Source: Pelobacter seleniigenes DSM 18267
GTDB lineage: Bacteria; Desulfobacterota; Desulfuromonadia; Desulfuromonadales; Geopsychrobacteraceae
DNA: 64,000 nt
Reading direction: 5' to 3'
Assembly: GCF_000711225.1 (NCBI RefSeq)
Contig: NZ_JOMG01000005.1
Span: 310,001-374,000 of the forward strand
Shown: positions 31,666-60,836 of the stretch, piece by piece
How the letters are laid out: each line of letters starts with the position of its first letter
Position numbering within the stretch: position 1 is the first letter of the stretch
Translations under genes and position numbers: made by a program
Notes under the pieces: model-generated
Told to the model about the DNA's origin: nothing
Databases searched by the model: none
Seen by the model: only the letters and a program-made list of their open reading frames with translations

Positions 31666-32754
31666 ATGTCCAAAACCTTGGCAATATTGACTGGTGGTGG
31701 CGACTGCCCGGGGTTGAATGCCGTTATCCGGGCGGTTGTCAAGACCGCTGTCAATCAGCATGGCTGGCGGGTTCTTGGTATCGAAGATGGCTTTGACGGT
31801 CTGGTCGGCAAGCTGCGCTGGCGTGAACTGGGGCTGGCTGATGTGCGCGGCATCCTGCCCCGTGGTGGAACGATTCTTGGGACAAGTAATCACGGTAATC
31901 CATTTAGTTATCCTGTAGAAGTTGATGGTAAACTTGAACTTCATGATGCCTCTGATCGGGTCGTGGAAACTTTTAAAAATCTTGGTGCTGATGTCCTCAT
32001 TGCCGTGGGCGGTGACGGTACCTTGAAGATTGCCCTTGGTCTTGCTGAGAAGGGGCTTCCGGTTGTTGGCGTGCCGAAGACCATCGACAACGATCTGAAA
32101 GCGACCGATGTCACCTTTGGCTACCGCACCGCGGTCGGCATTGTGACCGAGGCGCTTGATCGCCTCCACACCACTGCGGAGAGCCATCATCGGGCTATGG
32201 TGGTTGAGGTGATGGGCCGGGATGCCGGTTGGATCGCCCTGGAAGCCGGGATCGCCGGCTCAGCCGATGCTATTCTGATTCCGGAGATTCCTTACTCTGT
32301 CAATAAGTTATGTCACGCTATTGAAAAACGCCGTGAGCACGGCAGCCGGTTTTCGATTATTGTGGTTGCGGAAGGGGCTTTCCCGGTTTCCGGTGAGAAA
32401 ATCGTCCAAAAATCAGCTGCGCAAAATCTCGGAGTTGCCCAACTCGGTGGAGTCGGTTACCAAGTGGCACGGCAAATCGAGCAGTGTAACGACATCGAAA
32501 CCCGGGTTGTTACTCTCGGCCATTTGCAGCGGGGCGGGACCCCGACCCCATACGACAGGATTCTGGCTTCCCGGTTCGGGGTCAAGGCGGTGGAACTGAT
32601 CGCGCAGGGCGAATACGGGAAAATGGTTGCCCTAAAAGGGACTCAGGTCATCGGAGTTGAAATTGCCAGTGCCGTTGCCCACTTAAATCTGGTCGATCCG
32701 GACGGTGAATTGGTCGCAACGGCCGAAGCCCTGGGGATTATGGTCGGCCGCTAA
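31666..32754 (+). CDS. pfkA: 6-phosphofructokinase (group III type)
   Basis: 362 residues. Substrate and nucleotide motifs: LTGGGDCPGLNAVIR at the N-terminus, AVGGDGTL (~residue 105), VGVPKTIDNDL (~residue 127), VEVMGRDAGWIALEAG, and LGHLQRGGTPTPYDR. The Gly in GGDGT is the residue linked with ATP use, whereas Lys in PKTIDND (instead of Gly) occurs in PPi-dependent and group III ATP enzymes. This mixed signature fits group III PFKs (actinobacterial-type), which are mostly ATP-dependent; phosphoryl donor should be tested. It catalyses fructose-6-phosphate to fructose-1,6-bisphosphate. Converges with the CDF gene; the two stops overlap by 4 bp. Confidence 0.92.
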   Translation: MSKTLAILTGGGDCPGLNAVIRAVVKTAVNQHGWRVLGIEDGFDGLVGKLRWRELGLADVRGILPRGGTILGTSNHGNPFSYPVEVDGKLELHDASDRVVETFKNLGADVLIAVGGDGTLKIALGLAEKGLPVVGVPKTIDNDLKATDVTFGYRTAVGIVTEALDRLHTTAESHHRAMVVEVMGRDAGWIALEAGIAGSADAILIPEIPYSVNKLCHAIEKRREHGSRFSIIVVAEGAFPVSGEKIVQKSAAQNLGVAQLGGVGYQVARQIEQCNDIETRVVTLGHLQRGGTPTPYDRILASRFGVKAVELIAQGEYGKMVALKGTQVIGVEIASAVAHLNLVDPDGELVATAEALGIMVGR

Positions 32755-33716
32755 CGTTTTGCCGAGCCGTCGAGATCCTGAGCAAAGCCGGTCATTGCCG
32801 GATTGCCCGGTCTTCTGCCGCAGGTCGCTTGACCCGGACATTGGCGAACGGAGCAGGGATCGATGTGGATAATCACATCGGCGCCGGGGATCTCCCTGAC
32901 GATCTCCTCCTGCAGCCGATCGGCCAGATCATGTGCTTCGGACACGCTCATGTCTTTGCAAACCTCGAGATGAAAATCCATGATTTTCAGGGATCCGGCG
33001 CGGCGGGTCCGCAGGCCGTGATAACCGCACAGCGGGCCGTTGTGGTTGGTGATAACGCGATGGATGGTCTGCTGAATCGACTCGGGGAGTTCCTGATCGA
33101 GCATATCGTTCAGGCTCCTTTTGATCAACTGGACGGCCTCATGAAGAATGTAAGAGGCCACCAGAATTGACAGGGCCGGATCGAGCCAGCCAACATGGAA
33201 GAAGCGAATGAACAGCAAGCCGGCCATCAGGCCAAGGTTGCTGTAAATATCCATACGAAAATGCAGAGAGTCCGCCTCCAGTGCGGAGGAATCGGTTTGT
33301 TTGGCAATCCTGCGCAGGTAACGTGCAATAAACCAAGAGACCACAGAACTGAAAGCCAGAACCCCGATCCCCTGATCCAATTGGGCCAATTGGATGCCTT
33401 GACTCAGCCGCATCACCGACTCGTAGATGATCCAGGCTCCGGAACCGAAAATGACCAGTGCCTGAAACAGGGTCGCCAGGGTTTCGAATTTGCCGTGCCC
33501 GAAGGGATGGCGCTGATCCGGCGGCTGCTCAGCGTGGCGGATGGCCATGAAATTGACCCCTGACATGAGGATGTCGAGGAGCGAATCGATGGCTGAAGCC
33601 ATCACGGCCATGGAACCGCTGAAAAACGCGACAATGAGTTTGATAACGGCCAGGCTGAACGCGCAGGAAATGGAGAAGGTTGCGGCGCGCACCTTCAAGT
33701 TGTCGGATAATATCAC
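32751..33716 (-). CDS. Cation diffusion facilitator (CDF) family transporter
   Basis: 321 residues with six transmembrane helices in the first ~210. The metal-binding D-x3-D of helix 2 is seen in SAIDSLLDILMSGVN, followed by the family's HPFGHGKFE loop; helix 5 has LDPALSILVASYILHEA. The cytoplasmic C-terminal domain contains GYHGLRTRRAGSLKIMDFHLEV and VIIHIDP. It exports divalent cations (Zn2+, Fe2+, Mn2+ or Co2+) in exchange for protons. Unusual: the tail after residue ~285 is Cys-rich (CSVRQCPGQATCGRRPG), which could bind metal. The gene's promoter must lie within ~18 nt of, or inside, the MITE-like element at 33734-33911. Confidence 0.9.
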   Translation of the reverse strand: MILSDNLKVRAATFSISCAFSLAVIKLIVAFFSGSMAVMASAIDSLLDILMSGVNFMAIRHAEQPPDQRHPFGHGKFETLATLFQALVIFGSGAWIIYESVMRLSQGIQLAQLDQGIGVLAFSSVVSWFIARYLRRIAKQTDSSALEADSLHFRMDIYSNLGLMAGLLFIRFFHVGWLDPALSILVASYILHEAVQLIKRSLNDMLDQELPESIQQTIHRVITNHNGPLCGYHGLRTRRAGSLKIMDFHLEVCKDMSVSEAHDLADRLQEEIVREIPGADVIIHIDPCSVRQCPGQATCGRRPGNPAMTGFAQDLDGSAKR

Positions 33717-33733
33717 AGGCGTACCTTTTACTT

Positions 33734-33911
33734 AGTTATCACCCGGAAGCGGCCCTTTTCCGCCGTGTCGGTGTCTATCTGCGGGCTTATTTGCGCGGCG
33801 TAAAGAACTACGCCTCCGCATCAGCCCTTGATTTCCTAGCCACAACGAAAAATTGCTCGTTTCCAATCTGAAAACTTATGCGTTGGCATCCGGAGTTTCC
33901 GGCTGCCAACT
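33734..33911 (+). mobile_element. MITE-like element, copy 1 (178 bp)
   Basis: Begins AGTTATCACCCGGAA and ends TTTCCGGCTGCCAACT. Its ends form imperfect terminal inverted repeats (AGTT..C..CCGGAA type) and it is flanked by a 4-bp direct repeat ACTT (33730-33733 and 33912-33915). Almost the same sequence occurs inverted at 60389-60565; the alignment runs the full length (e.g. GCGGCGTAAAG-ACTACGCCTCCGC, CTTGATTTCCT-GCCACAACGAAAA and TTTCCAATCTGAAAAC are shared). No coding frame. It abuts the stop of the 168-residue gene and the 5' end of the CDF gene. Confidence 0.8.
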
Positions 33912-34416
33912 ACTTATCAGGGCACAGGCGATTCCAGTTGCTAAAACCATCACCGCTCAAGGCGTGAAAGTCATCGATTCGTTGACGGTAATAGCTCAGG
34001 TCTGAGCAAGCCTGTTCAATATCGTCGTGCTGCTCTGGTGCTGAAAGTTTACGGGCGCTGCAGAACAGATAGAAATCCCTTATCCCCAGCAGGATATTTT
34101 CAAGTTCTACCAGATTCGGTTCCAAAGTCGAGATAATATACCAGTTACCGGCAAAACCCTTAACCTGTGCTGCGGAAAAATGGAAAATATTCATCCGGCA
34201 ATGATCGATCAGGTAATCACGCAGAAAATAATCAGCGCCGGCGGCACGCAATCCGGCCTCCAGTGGGGGGAGCCGTTTTTCGCTCAACAGGTCTTGATGA
34301 AAGTGTTTCAGCAACTCTTTACAGGCCAGATCGGCACGAATCTCATCGGCCAGGGTTTGAACCTCATAGGTTGATGAGGCAAAGATTTCAGTGGTGGAAA
34401 ATGAATACTGTTCCAT
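33910..34416 (-). CDS. Hypothetical protein (168 aa), 3' end at MITE junction
   Basis: No family recognised. The protein is soluble, without signal peptide or membrane segment; it is rich in aromatic residues and charged helices (LADEIRADLACKELLKHF, DDIEQACSDLSYYRQRIDDF) and appears all-helical. Cys, Asp and His are scattered without a clear motif. The stop codon TAG is made of one base of the 4-bp target duplication plus two bases of the MITE-like element, so the original C-terminus may have been longer before the insertion. Start ATG at 34416 has AGGATCCTGC-like sequence upstream (weak). Base composition is like its neighbours. Function unknown. Confidence 0.65.
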   Translation of the reverse strand: MEQYSFSTTEIFASSTYEVQTLADEIRADLACKELLKHFHQDLLSEKRLPPLEAGLRAAGADYFLRDYLIDHCRMNIFHFSAAQVKGFAGNWYIISTLEPNLVELENILLGIRDFYLFCSARKLSAPEQHDDIEQACSDLSYYRQRIDDFHALSGDGFSNWNRLCPDK

Positions 34417-58552: not shown

Positions 58553-60367
58553 TTAATGAACAACATCAGGCAATGCAGAATTCTTTAGCTGCTTTCTGAA
58601 TAATGCGTTTTCCATCGAGATTCCCGCCTGACCGGCAAAGAATTCCAGAAAATCCAGCGAAATATCTTTGGCTTTCTGATGGCCAAAATCTGCATAGGTA
58701 ACTGTAATGATTCGATCATTGCTTTTCAATGGCAAAAGCAGAATAGTCGGGTCGGCAGGGACGCCGATCTCAGGATAAAGCAGATCCCCCAGCATGTCGT
58801 CATCCGAACTGCCAAAAAAACTCTCCCCGCTGCTGATGACCTGTTGAAAAAGCGATTTTTTCCGAATCGGAATCCTGGTTTTCATGGGCGGGGCAGGGCC
58901 CGTAGCAAGATCACTGATAATCCCGATACTGCGTTCAGCAATCAGCGCATCACGATCAACAATCAGCGTCAGGCTGCGGGCAAAGAATTCGCCGACAAAC
59001 TGCAACAGCAACAAGGAAATATCCGGTGCTTTTTTAAGCAGGCGCAGGCTGGACAGGCAGTTGCGCAACTTGGAGAATTGCAGACGCCGTTCTTCATTGA
59101 AGCAGCTGCGGATATAGGTGCTGAACGAATTGAGAAATTGGATGGTATCCACTACCGGTGCATCATTTTGCTGTGAAGGGTCTGGGTAAGGGAAAACCGC
59201 CCTCATTCCATCATTCAATGATTCCAGTGAAAAAGAATAATCGCCCGGACTAGCCAGTTGAATCAATGAGATATCCGGATGCTGCAGCATCATGCGCGAG
59301 CGCAGTTCCATCAGCCCCTGCTTGGTAAAATGTTCTGCCGCCGGGTTAGGGCAGCCGAACACCACAATCGGTTCAAGGATTTTTTTCAGGGTTCGGTCAA
59401 CAACCCGCTCCAAATCTTCCTCGTCCTCGGGGGCAAAGGCCAGGATACCTTCGCGTTTGCAAACCGTCATAATCGCATGGCGCAAGAACTCGTCATCGCT
59501 GTAAAGAATGACCGCCTGCGATCTGACCGCCGGATGAAGGGCCAGTGGTTCGTCCGGCAGGGGCAAGGAGACGCGGGTCAGAAAGTCGACCATGGCATCA
59601 GAAAAACTTTCCGAAACAGTTGGCAGGGTGCGGGCAATGACCTGACGGTGAATATCCGCCGGATCGAACGCTTCCAGAACCTGAAATGTGGATGGTTTTT
59701 TCCGTTCGATTTTATCGAGATCGGCAAGACCCAGAATATCCTCGGAAACGACAACGTCCTCGCTGGTATACTCTGGCTGTTCTTCCTCAACAACCCCAAT
59801 TGGAGTAGACCCCTCCAGGTCTTCGCCTTCGTCTATTAATTTGATCTCCCCGGCATGAACCTTCTCATCAAAAATCCGCAGAGCGTCCATCAGCACCATT
59901 TGAGTGTCCAGGCTGACGTCCTGCAGGTGAGTGGGGAGATATTGATACTCATCGTTGATGAGAACCGTCTCCGTATCCAGTGTAAAAACCCCACGACTCC
60001 AGCTGACCATTTCCACGACAGTCATTTCAATCAGGGTCTCAAGGGCCTTGTAAGCCGAATCCTTGGACAGGCCGCAATGATCGTGCAGGGTCGCAATCAG
60101 CGGCTTACGATATTCGCCGGCCAGTTTTTGACTGATCAGAGCTCTTTTAAGGTCGCTCTCGTTGATGATCTTACTTTCGACGAGGATTTTACCGATTTTC
60201 AGATCATCACTTGAATGGGTTGCACAAATGATATAACCATCACGAAAAACCAGTTGCCCTTCGCCCTTGCGGCTATAAACATTCAGAGTCCCCGATTTTC
60301 TGGTGGAGTGGATCAATTGAATAACATCAACTATCGGCAGTTGTTCCAGTTCACCGGTCAGTGGCAT
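58553..60367 (-). CDS. DUF4388 (PATAN-like) and GAF-like domain protein
   Basis: 604 residues. Residues ~1-125 are a DUF4388/PATAN domain (LTGELEQLPIVDVIQLIHSTRKSGTLNV, DGYIICATHSS), a domain linked to gliding and type IV pilus signalling in delta-proteobacteria and cyanobacteria. The middle (~250-400) is a receiver-like region (QAVILYSDDEFLRHAIMTVCKREGILAFAPE, VVFGCPNP) that lacks a clear phosphoacceptor set. The C-terminal ~150 residues resemble a GAF domain (LLLPLKSNDRIITVTYADF, DFLEFFAGQAGISMENALF). No output DNA-binding domain. Operon with pilT suggests a scaffold/adapter for twitching motility (inference). Confidence 0.75.
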   Translation of the reverse strand: MPLTGELEQLPIVDVIQLIHSTRKSGTLNVYSRKGEGQLVFRDGYIICATHSSDDLKIGKILVESKIINESDLKRALISQKLAGEYRKPLIATLHDHCGLSKDSAYKALETLIEMTVVEMVSWSRGVFTLDTETVLINDEYQYLPTHLQDVSLDTQMVLMDALRIFDEKVHAGEIKLIDEGEDLEGSTPIGVVEEEQPEYTSEDVVVSEDILGLADLDKIERKKPSTFQVLEAFDPADIHRQVIARTLPTVSESFSDAMVDFLTRVSLPLPDEPLALHPAVRSQAVILYSDDEFLRHAIMTVCKREGILAFAPEDEEDLERVVDRTLKKILEPIVVFGCPNPAAEHFTKQGLMELRSRMMLQHPDISLIQLASPGDYSFSLESLNDGMRAVFPYPDPSQQNDAPVVDTIQFLNSFSTYIRSCFNEERRLQFSKLRNCLSSLRLLKKAPDISLLLLQFVGEFFARSLTLIVDRDALIAERSIGIISDLATGPAPPMKTRIPIRKKSLFQQVISSGESFFGSSDDDMLGDLLYPEIGVPADPTILLLPLKSNDRIITVTYADFGHQKAKDISLDFLEFFAGQAGISMENALFRKQLKNSALPDVVH

Positions 60368-60388
60368 ACGATACCTCTTTAATTAGCT

Positions 60389-60565
60389 AGTTGGCGTCCG
60401 GAAACTCCGGATGGCAACGGCTATGTTTTCAGATTGGAAACAAGCAAATTTTCGTTGTGGCAAGGAAATCAAGGGGTTGCGCGGAGGCGTAGTCCTTTAC
60501 GCCGCACAAGAAAACCCGTAGATTGACACCGCCACAACGAAAAGGGCCGTTTCCGGATGAAAACT
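60389..60565 (-). mobile_element. MITE-like element, copy 2 (177 bp, inverted relative to copy 1)
   Basis: On plus it begins AGTTGGCGTCCGGAAAC and ends GTTTCCGGATGAAAACT. It is the reverse complement counterpart of 33734-33911 and similar over its length. It is flanked by the 4-bp direct repeat AGCT (60385-60388 and 60566-60569). Terminal inverted repeats share AGTT--C-TCCGGAAAC. It lies 21 bp upstream of the DUF4388-pilT operon start. Confidence 0.8.
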
Positions 60566-60836
60566 AGCTAGCGATTCATGAACTGTCGACATCCCCCCGT
60601 AACTACACTTCAATAAAGTTAAAATATATTAAACTCAAAATAGTTAAAAGTTTCAAGTATTATCTAAAAATGTTCCCAATTGTTAATTAAAACAATCAAC
60701 ATAACAGTTGTGTAAAGAAGTACGTTGATCACTCAATAGGGACAGAATATGGATGAAATGTCCACGGTGGGCGCCCGGGAATGGATGGGATGTTTAAGCA
60801 TCAGGGATAGGGGGGGCAGCAGAGGCTGAATACAAA
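60566..60836. other. AT-rich intergenic region between MITE copy 2 and tRNA-Leu
   Basis: About 270 nt; 60600-60720 is strongly AT-rich. A 26-codon frame (60749-60829) has GGGACAGA upstream but no other support. No riboswitch motif recognised. It may contain the original promoter region of the DUF4388-pilT operon, now displaced by the MITE. Confidence 0.3.

Follow-up and report, generated by a model that had tools for sequence, protein, structure and literature searches.

Bacterial MITEs in general are short and non-coding, with terminal inverted repeats, a target duplication and a high copy number; derivation of the interior from an autonomous element by deletion is one route of MITE origin, not all of them, and orphan MITEs are known, so that a missing partner does not exclude membership of this class. 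REP elements with a GTAG foot, located between genes, occur in other bacteria. Insertion sequences of the ISNCY group related to ISRle10 (NF033593) are full-length elements with a DDE transposase, an end type GTKNCCRTCC..AAAC, terminal GT..AC and 6-7-bp duplications, and an ISDol1 subgroup of ISNCY is mentioned in PMC8147514. For Geobacter metallireducens, a 24-member family of a 'predicted short RNA element' was printed in 2009 (for example Gmet_R1005 = GSU0160.1; PMC2700814), whose members are intergenic, with one member inside one transcription unit; a member between dapAB and dapL has a counterpart in G. sulfurreducens. 'Multicopy nucleotide sequences' are listed in the papers on Pelobacter carbinolicus (PMC3543383) and Geobacter bemidjiensis (PMC2996986). 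Among the papers listed on MITEs in connection with Geobacter, Desulfuromonas or ISNCY, and on REP elements in connection with Geobacter, no title or abstract opening describes the element analysed here, which is no proof of absence.

In comparison to these systems, the repeat analysed here is a real mobile MITE family with ISNCY-type ends and an unusual cargo, a hairpin also living on its own, and we hold it probable that an ISNCY-type transposase acted on it in trans. It shares the general features of bacterial MITEs, but it has two adjacent hairpins and not one inverted-repeat frame, a core conserved over much of the phylum, and a few arms apparently recopied from the flank. It shares the end type, the terminal GT..AC and the duplication length with the ISRle10-related sequences, whereas it has no gene, its interior is unrelated, and no full-length partner was found in the host. 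Like REP/BIME elements it comprises hairpins between genes, with a GTAG foot on half of the core-only copies, but the MITE is much longer and carries target duplications, and no association with a Y1 transposase gene was found at 30 loci. The central palindrome of the G. metallireducens family, GRCGTAGCGCTGCTACGCC, is found in three core-only loci (L311, L322 and L325); unlike for the MITE, no transposon ends or target duplications are described for that family in the excerpt of PMC2700814, and its identity with our core rests on palindrome and position. The preliminary description had regarded the family as new, which holds in part only: the palindrome of the inner hairpin was already in print in 2009, while the G. 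metallireducens family was not classed as mobile in that excerpt.

The window, which is the whole stretch of 64,000 nucleotides that was analysed, contains two copies, and the features of both are as follows (strand in brackets, a dot where none applies).

32751..33716 (-): flanking gene of copy 1, cation efflux transporter (PF01545)
33729..33734 (.): left target duplication of copy 1, TACTTA
33735..33910 (+): MITE copy 1 (GTT...AAC, 176 bp)
33735..33875 (+): hairpin 1 of copy 1 (left end, conserved core, inner end copy)
33876..33881 (+): 6-bp linker TTATGC of copy 1, joining both hairpins
33882..33910 (+): hairpin 2 of copy 1 (29 bp, GTTGGC...GCCAAC; the 3' arm is the right transposon end)
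33911..33916 (.): right target duplication of copy 1, TACTTA
33910..34416 (-): flanking gene of copy 1, 168 aa, without Pfam match; partner of the transporter gene in relatives
60384..60389 (.): target duplication of copy 2, TAGCTA
60390..60564 (-): MITE copy 2 (175 bp, inverted)
60390..60418 (-): hairpin 2 of copy 2
60425..60564 (-): hairpin 1 of copy 2
60565..60570 (.): target duplication of copy 2, TAGCTA

The end-to-end alignment of the two copies, with copy 2 inverted, was confirmed and is far beyond chance, and at 175-176 bp the element is, as had been stated, non-coding, its length leaving no room for a transposase gene. The TAG stop of the minus-strand gene 33910-34416 is formed by the end of the right duplication of copy 1 together with element base 33910, and copy 2 lies 22 bp ahead of the start codon of a DUF4388 gene (58553-60367). 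The element consists of two hairpins joined by a linker of usually 6 bp: in hairpin 1 (about 140 bp) the left end is paired with its own inner copy, and in hairpin 2 (about 29 bp) the same holds for the right end. An inner inverted repeat had been suggested; it is the stem of the long hairpin 33735-33875, followed by the 6-bp linker and the second hairpin. Shorter forms of about 131 bp and 73 bp and a minimal form of 50-51 bp retain the ends, and the minimal elements consist of the left end, a short linker and hairpin 2 only (L159, L181:2874-2923 and L188:4623-4673).

The copy number was determined in the host genome (5.09 Mb, six contigs). BLAST with both copies gave at least 51 distinct loci, a few of them partial, from the 40 of 118 and 40 of 128 first-look candidates that were scored. 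With the covariance model (R1), 98 of 122 rows had at least 65 bits; two of these rows repeat the same DNA through the overlap of contigs C3 and C5, and the number of loci is therefore about 96, a lower bound given that 150 of 2042 first-look candidates were scored. The proposed family has many copies in this genome. Judged by position, most of the 24 rows that scored under 45 bits are either very short forms or echoes of palindromic copies on the opposite strand. The contig overlap (G000:C3:1-4068 with the C5 end, 99.8% over 4070 bases) is an assembly overlap. Tandem arrays were also observed, with three copies in L380 (G000:C2:187531-188066) and two in L023/L024, separated by 6-bp spacers; the spacer ACGCTG occurs twice in L380. 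The nearest-copy identity among 59 copies is up to 98.9% with a median of 95%, which suggests that the spread in this genome was fairly recent.

The results confirmed both terminal inverted repeats and target duplications. The motif GTTNNCATCCGGAAA is present at both element ends and occurs 123 times in the host genome, in comparison to 0 for the reversed control. Among 59 full-length host copies (9 partial ones and hits below 60 model positions were dropped), the 6-bp duplication is exact in 33 and agrees in 5 of 6 positions in another 16, while in 1000 rounds of shuffling the right flanks no more than 7 of the 59 matched exactly over 6 bp. Outside these 33, an exact duplication of 7 bp was found in four copies (L025, L039, L043 and L157). 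The consensus of the duplication is TARYTR and the commonest form TAGCTA. The preliminary description had placed the ends at AGTT...AACT with a duplication of 4 bp, and both points needed revision: the duplication is 6 bp (rarely 7 bp) and the element proper is GTT...AAC, because copies with an unusual outermost duplicated base have the same base on both sides, namely TAGCTG (L006, L037 and L038), GAGCTA (L036), CAGCTA (L041) and TATTTG (L047), and such flanks rule out the shorter duplication with the longer ends. The flanks are unequal in several host copies (L003, L005, L008, L016 and L017), mostly at the base adjoining the element.

The preliminary description had further held that a transposase encoded at another place in the genome has to move the element, and no matching transposase was found in the host genome. 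A full-length transposon with the same ends, which it had also envisaged, does exist: intact elements with matching ends were found in two relatives, G009 and G048, from a set of 60 genomes including the host, that is, 59 relatives. The insertion sequence in G009 (L182:2505-4176, 1672 bp) is flanked by TAGTTA on each side and directly adjoins a MITE copy; its transposase, P0001, scored 472 bits against the NCBIfam family ISNCY_1 (NF033593, cut-off 325); the unit starts with GTTTCCGTCCGGAAAG and ends with the inverse of GTGTTCATCCGGAAAC. The one in G048 (L195:1308-2993, 1686 bp) has the ends GTGTCCGTCCGGAAAC and GTTTCCATCCGGAAAG and the duplication AAGCTA, and its transposase scored 485 bits and is 64% identical to that of G009. 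Transposase scores above the cut-off and inverted ends with a duplication place both elements in ISNCY_1. Residues D146, D355 and E406 (P0001 numbering) are common to three aligned transposases, and we read them as a putative catalytic triad. A copy annotated as ISRle10 in NC_008382 (a Rhizobium plasmid) has the ends GTGCCCGTCCATAAACG and a 7-bp duplication, TAGTCTA, and a Rhizobium leguminosarum copy of an ISRle10-like element has TAGCTA; for a plasmid copy annotated as ISRm17 (L200), the same script found no clear ends. The end sequence GTKNNCRTCCGGAAAC, the terminal GT..AC and the 6-7-bp duplication are common to the MITE and the ISNCY group, and beyond these ends, about 16 bp, the MITE and the insertion sequence have no sequence in common. 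Judged from these ends and the target, an ISNCY_1 enzyme would have moved the MITEs, and the type of mobiliser is likely an ISNCY-family element related to ISRle10.

In the host genome there were no matches to P0001 at E<=1e-10, and the best ISNCY_1 family match scored 51 bits in comparison to the cut-off of 325; the host MITEs look like orphans because no ISNCY_1 transposase was found in that genome. ISNCY_1 was above the cut-off in only 2 of the 59 relatives, and full partner elements were found only in these two (G009 and G048), with pieces in G012 and G031. Five MITE-rich relatives (G017, G018, G034, G039 and G059) gave no transposase match at E<=1e-10, the MITE-rich G031 has a transposase fragment at a contig end, and the MITE-rich G051 has a match only below the cut-off; G048, with its intact insertion sequence, gave no MITE match at E<=0.01. 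The transposase families covered by the searches were ISNCY_1, DDE_Tnp_1 and Y1_Tnp.

Several places where a longer element might lie were examined. Among 100 of the 123 host end motifs, those listed, no facing pair 0.8-3 kb apart was seen by eye that two separate short copies did not explain. For 20 stretches around seemingly unpaired ends, the profile matched in 19 (short pieces only in L154, L162 and L167), and L153 contains a lone end only. An autonomous partner in the host genome was rejected, there being neither an ISNCY_1 gene nor paired ends around the DDE_Tnp_1 genes found, and so was a long element behind the broken G009 contigs, which start inside seemingly ordinary copies of about 176 bp. 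At L174:2863 in the host, a single exact end of the MITE type is located some 0.2 kb away from a DDE_Tnp_1 gene that has different inverted repeats of its own; no partner end and no matching hexamer were found for it. A DDE_Tnp_1 gene is also present at three host places (L171-L173), and the inverted repeats TGCTGTCTCATAG that flank the genes in L171 and L173 represent an unrelated insertion sequence.

These data bear on the alternative that the MITE was moved by another transposase family, the shared ISNCY ends being convergent or a relic. The lack of an ISNCY_1 gene among the matches in the host and in most MITE-rich relatives, together with the limitation of the match to about 16 bp, is in keeping with it; however, the same ends, GT..AC termini and 6-bp-type duplication are found in two intact ISNCY_1 elements and in ISRle10-like copies, and no pair of such ends surrounds any host DDE_Tnp_1 gene found, and we consider this alternative improbable. 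Under the preferred explanation, ISNCY mobilisation in trans, an ISNCY_1-type transposase, once in the host lineage or passing through it, would have bound the short element at its 16-bp ends and, acting in trans, inserted it into TARYTR hexamers, and the later loss of the transposase gene would have left about 96 non-autonomous copies.

The fold of the window copies is strong (z of -4.8 and -6.9), and its covariation was examined in 47 sequences, obtained from 117 full-length places which were reduced to 50 by similarity, less 5 shortened ones and plus the 2 window copies. The percentage of cells that pair is 84.1% in comparison to 79.1% in shuffles and 31-48% in slid controls, and 194 cells are altered on both sides in comparison to 94 in shuffles, a value reached by 0 of 500 shuffles; further pair types are less striking (83 in comparison to 77, 18 of 500 shuffles). 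The structure used was the fold of copy 2, which favours the copy-2 structure in these figures, while an unguided consensus fold has 22 pairs, of which 8 are altered in both partners. Compensatory stem changes are thus present in the MITE family, with template switching as an alternative cause. Rfam gave 0 matches at the gathering score in the window, and at E<=1 over 12 loci it gave four matches below that score, none of which was read as lying over the element. In L324:1-175, a T-box-like match (41 bits, below the gathering score, cut off at 5') lies just ahead of core copies.

A strict parser was given 131 sequences, some loci being fetched twice, and accepted 61 copies, while the others failed it; 49 of the accepted copies have a linker of 6 bp. 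In 5 of 106 copies (L005, L016, L159, L166 and L240), the linker and the right flank of the same copy, the latter being host DNA, are reverse complements of each other at 5 or 6 of 6 positions, in comparison to a mean of 0.59 and a maximum of 4 in 2000 rounds of shuffled linker-flank pairing; 121 copies had been found, 15 of them without a readable hairpin 2, and the thresholds were picked after looking. With a looser threshold (4 of 6) and the 61 copies with uncommon linkers, 7 were counted in comparison to a mean of 4.0 and a maximum of 11, no clear excess. Template switching is known as a mechanism for quasi-palindromes, and we read the five copies as ones whose inner arm of hairpin 2 was probably recopied from the outer arm and the flank in this way, in few events. 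Because inner arms seem to have been recopied from the outer arm and the host flank, covariation need not mean RNA function, and part of the arm pairing may be kept by template switching during replication. The linker may itself be a former target duplication between two elements joined in tandem, for which its predominant length of 6 bp and the spacing of 6 bp between tandem copies (L380) speak, but its letters are family-typical and mostly not TARYTR. Solo hairpin-1 units were considered as the original element and rejected, the flanks of about five of them, read in alignments, having no duplication.

The strong fold and the compensatory changes would also be expected of an old structured RNA family inherited in place and not mobile, and a core alone between the same two genes in L313 and L317 (two genomes of one genus) agrees with that view. 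The empty sites argue against it. The cation efflux gene that flanks copy 1 is present in 47 of the 59 relatives (E<=1e-60), and in all 29 relatives whose loci were kept for examination the copy-1 site is empty, with the transporter gene directly following the orthologue of 33910-34416 across gaps of 13-98 bp; one of these 29 loci (L289) carries a MITE copy elsewhere, outside the gap. At the place orthologous to copy 2, the DUF4388 orthologue of one syntenic relative (L077) is present with no element. Target duplications of 6 or 7 bp occur in 37 of the 59 full-length copies, and the copies face genes in either orientation: among 51 host copies, gene 3' ends within 60 bp of the MITE are 14 sense and 14 antisense, showing no orientation bias. 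The empty sites together with the duplications refute inheritance in place for the MITE copies but leave it standing for the core-only ones; as an explanation of the repeat as a whole we regard it as highly improbable. The mobility of the family is well supported: the element is short and without a gene, it has terminal inverted repeats and a target duplication, and it was inserted into formerly empty sites. Its interior does not derive from an autonomous element by deletion as far as the match goes, only the ends being alike, and the host genome (G000) yielded no autonomous element whose ends agree with those of the MITE.

Copies are also present in relatives, as had been anticipated, with matches to copy 2 in 36 of the 59 (E<=0.01, host not counted). 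In a phylum-wide draw of 395 genomes including the host, R1 matched in 59 (E<=1e-4), or in 45 of 246 genera, a lower bound owing to stricter filters. The best named matches to a protein of the window come from Desulfuromusa, Malonomonas and further Desulfuromonadales, and judged by these names the phylum is Desulfobacterota. No match to the element was found in plasmids and phages at distant sensitivity, no viral contig had one 29-base element pattern, and 80 loci of genome contigs (1.33 Mb) had no match with the element profile or R1.

The interior core of about 116 bp is unrelated to the insertion sequence, and in some genomes of other families it occurs without the transposon ends. The core-only sample comprised 18 loci from six genomes of other families, three of the same order (G323, G363 and G040) and three of the same class (G157, G259 and G084), which were picked as many of their matches covered only the middle of the model. 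For the best ISNCY-type end up to 60 bases from the core, 3 to 5 mismatches were counted in these 18 loci, in comparison to 0 or 1 in 11 MITE-form loci. The base of the core lies within 8 bases of a same-strand reading-frame stop codon in 13 of the 18 loci (L310-L319, L322, L323 and L325), often between operon-like genes, in comparison to 1 of 18 for the mirror arrangement and 171 of 2000 random plus-strand points, the points being drawn from host-genome loci and not from the core-only genomes. The same test on 51 host MITE copies gave 15 sense and 19 antisense, mostly with a TAG formed by duplication and element. By Pfam, the neighbours of the core are YajC before it and ACCA, ABC transporter, 3HCDH_N or EVE after it; 4 of 9 neighbour fragments had no match above cut-off, among them one with a HycI match below its cut-off. 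The MITE most likely arose from ISNCY-type ends flanking a hairpin repeat, because its interior is not derived from the insertion sequence and exists elsewhere without the ends; such ends would have come to flank a pre-existing repeat.

That the core is instead a REP-like element moved by a RAYT (Y1 tyrosine transposase), the MITE ends being secondary, finds an echo in the GTAG that 9 of the 18 core-only loci have at the 5' foot of the core, but this GTAG coincides with stop codons of upstream frames, the model had 0 hits in 30 Y1_Tnp loci (30 of 88 rows), and the MITE copies carry target duplications, which to our knowledge Y1 enzymes do not make, and we give this explanation very little credence. 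G259 has 28 Y1_Tnp matches, many at contig ends, and probably contains a high-copy Y1 transposon.

For the biology of the family, a bolder reading is that the core of about 116 bp is a functional RNA element of the phylum acting in the sense strand behind stop codons, which was captured by ISNCY-type ends into a phylum-wide MITE and scattered to about 96 places in one genome; we put it forward tentatively, as possible but rather unlikely, and candidate roles of the core would be intercistronic processing or protection of the upstream message. The analysis links the multicopy 'short RNA' elements of Geobacter genomes with a transposon family able to spread such a hairpin, and the few copies in which a palindrome arm was seemingly recopied from host DNA may be a footprint of template switching. 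Should the core act on messages, the MITE would be a natural means of placing a regulatory hairpin at many sites of a genome; should it have no such action, the family still represents a clear example of apparently orphan MITEs that are present in high copy number and have a probable type of mobiliser.
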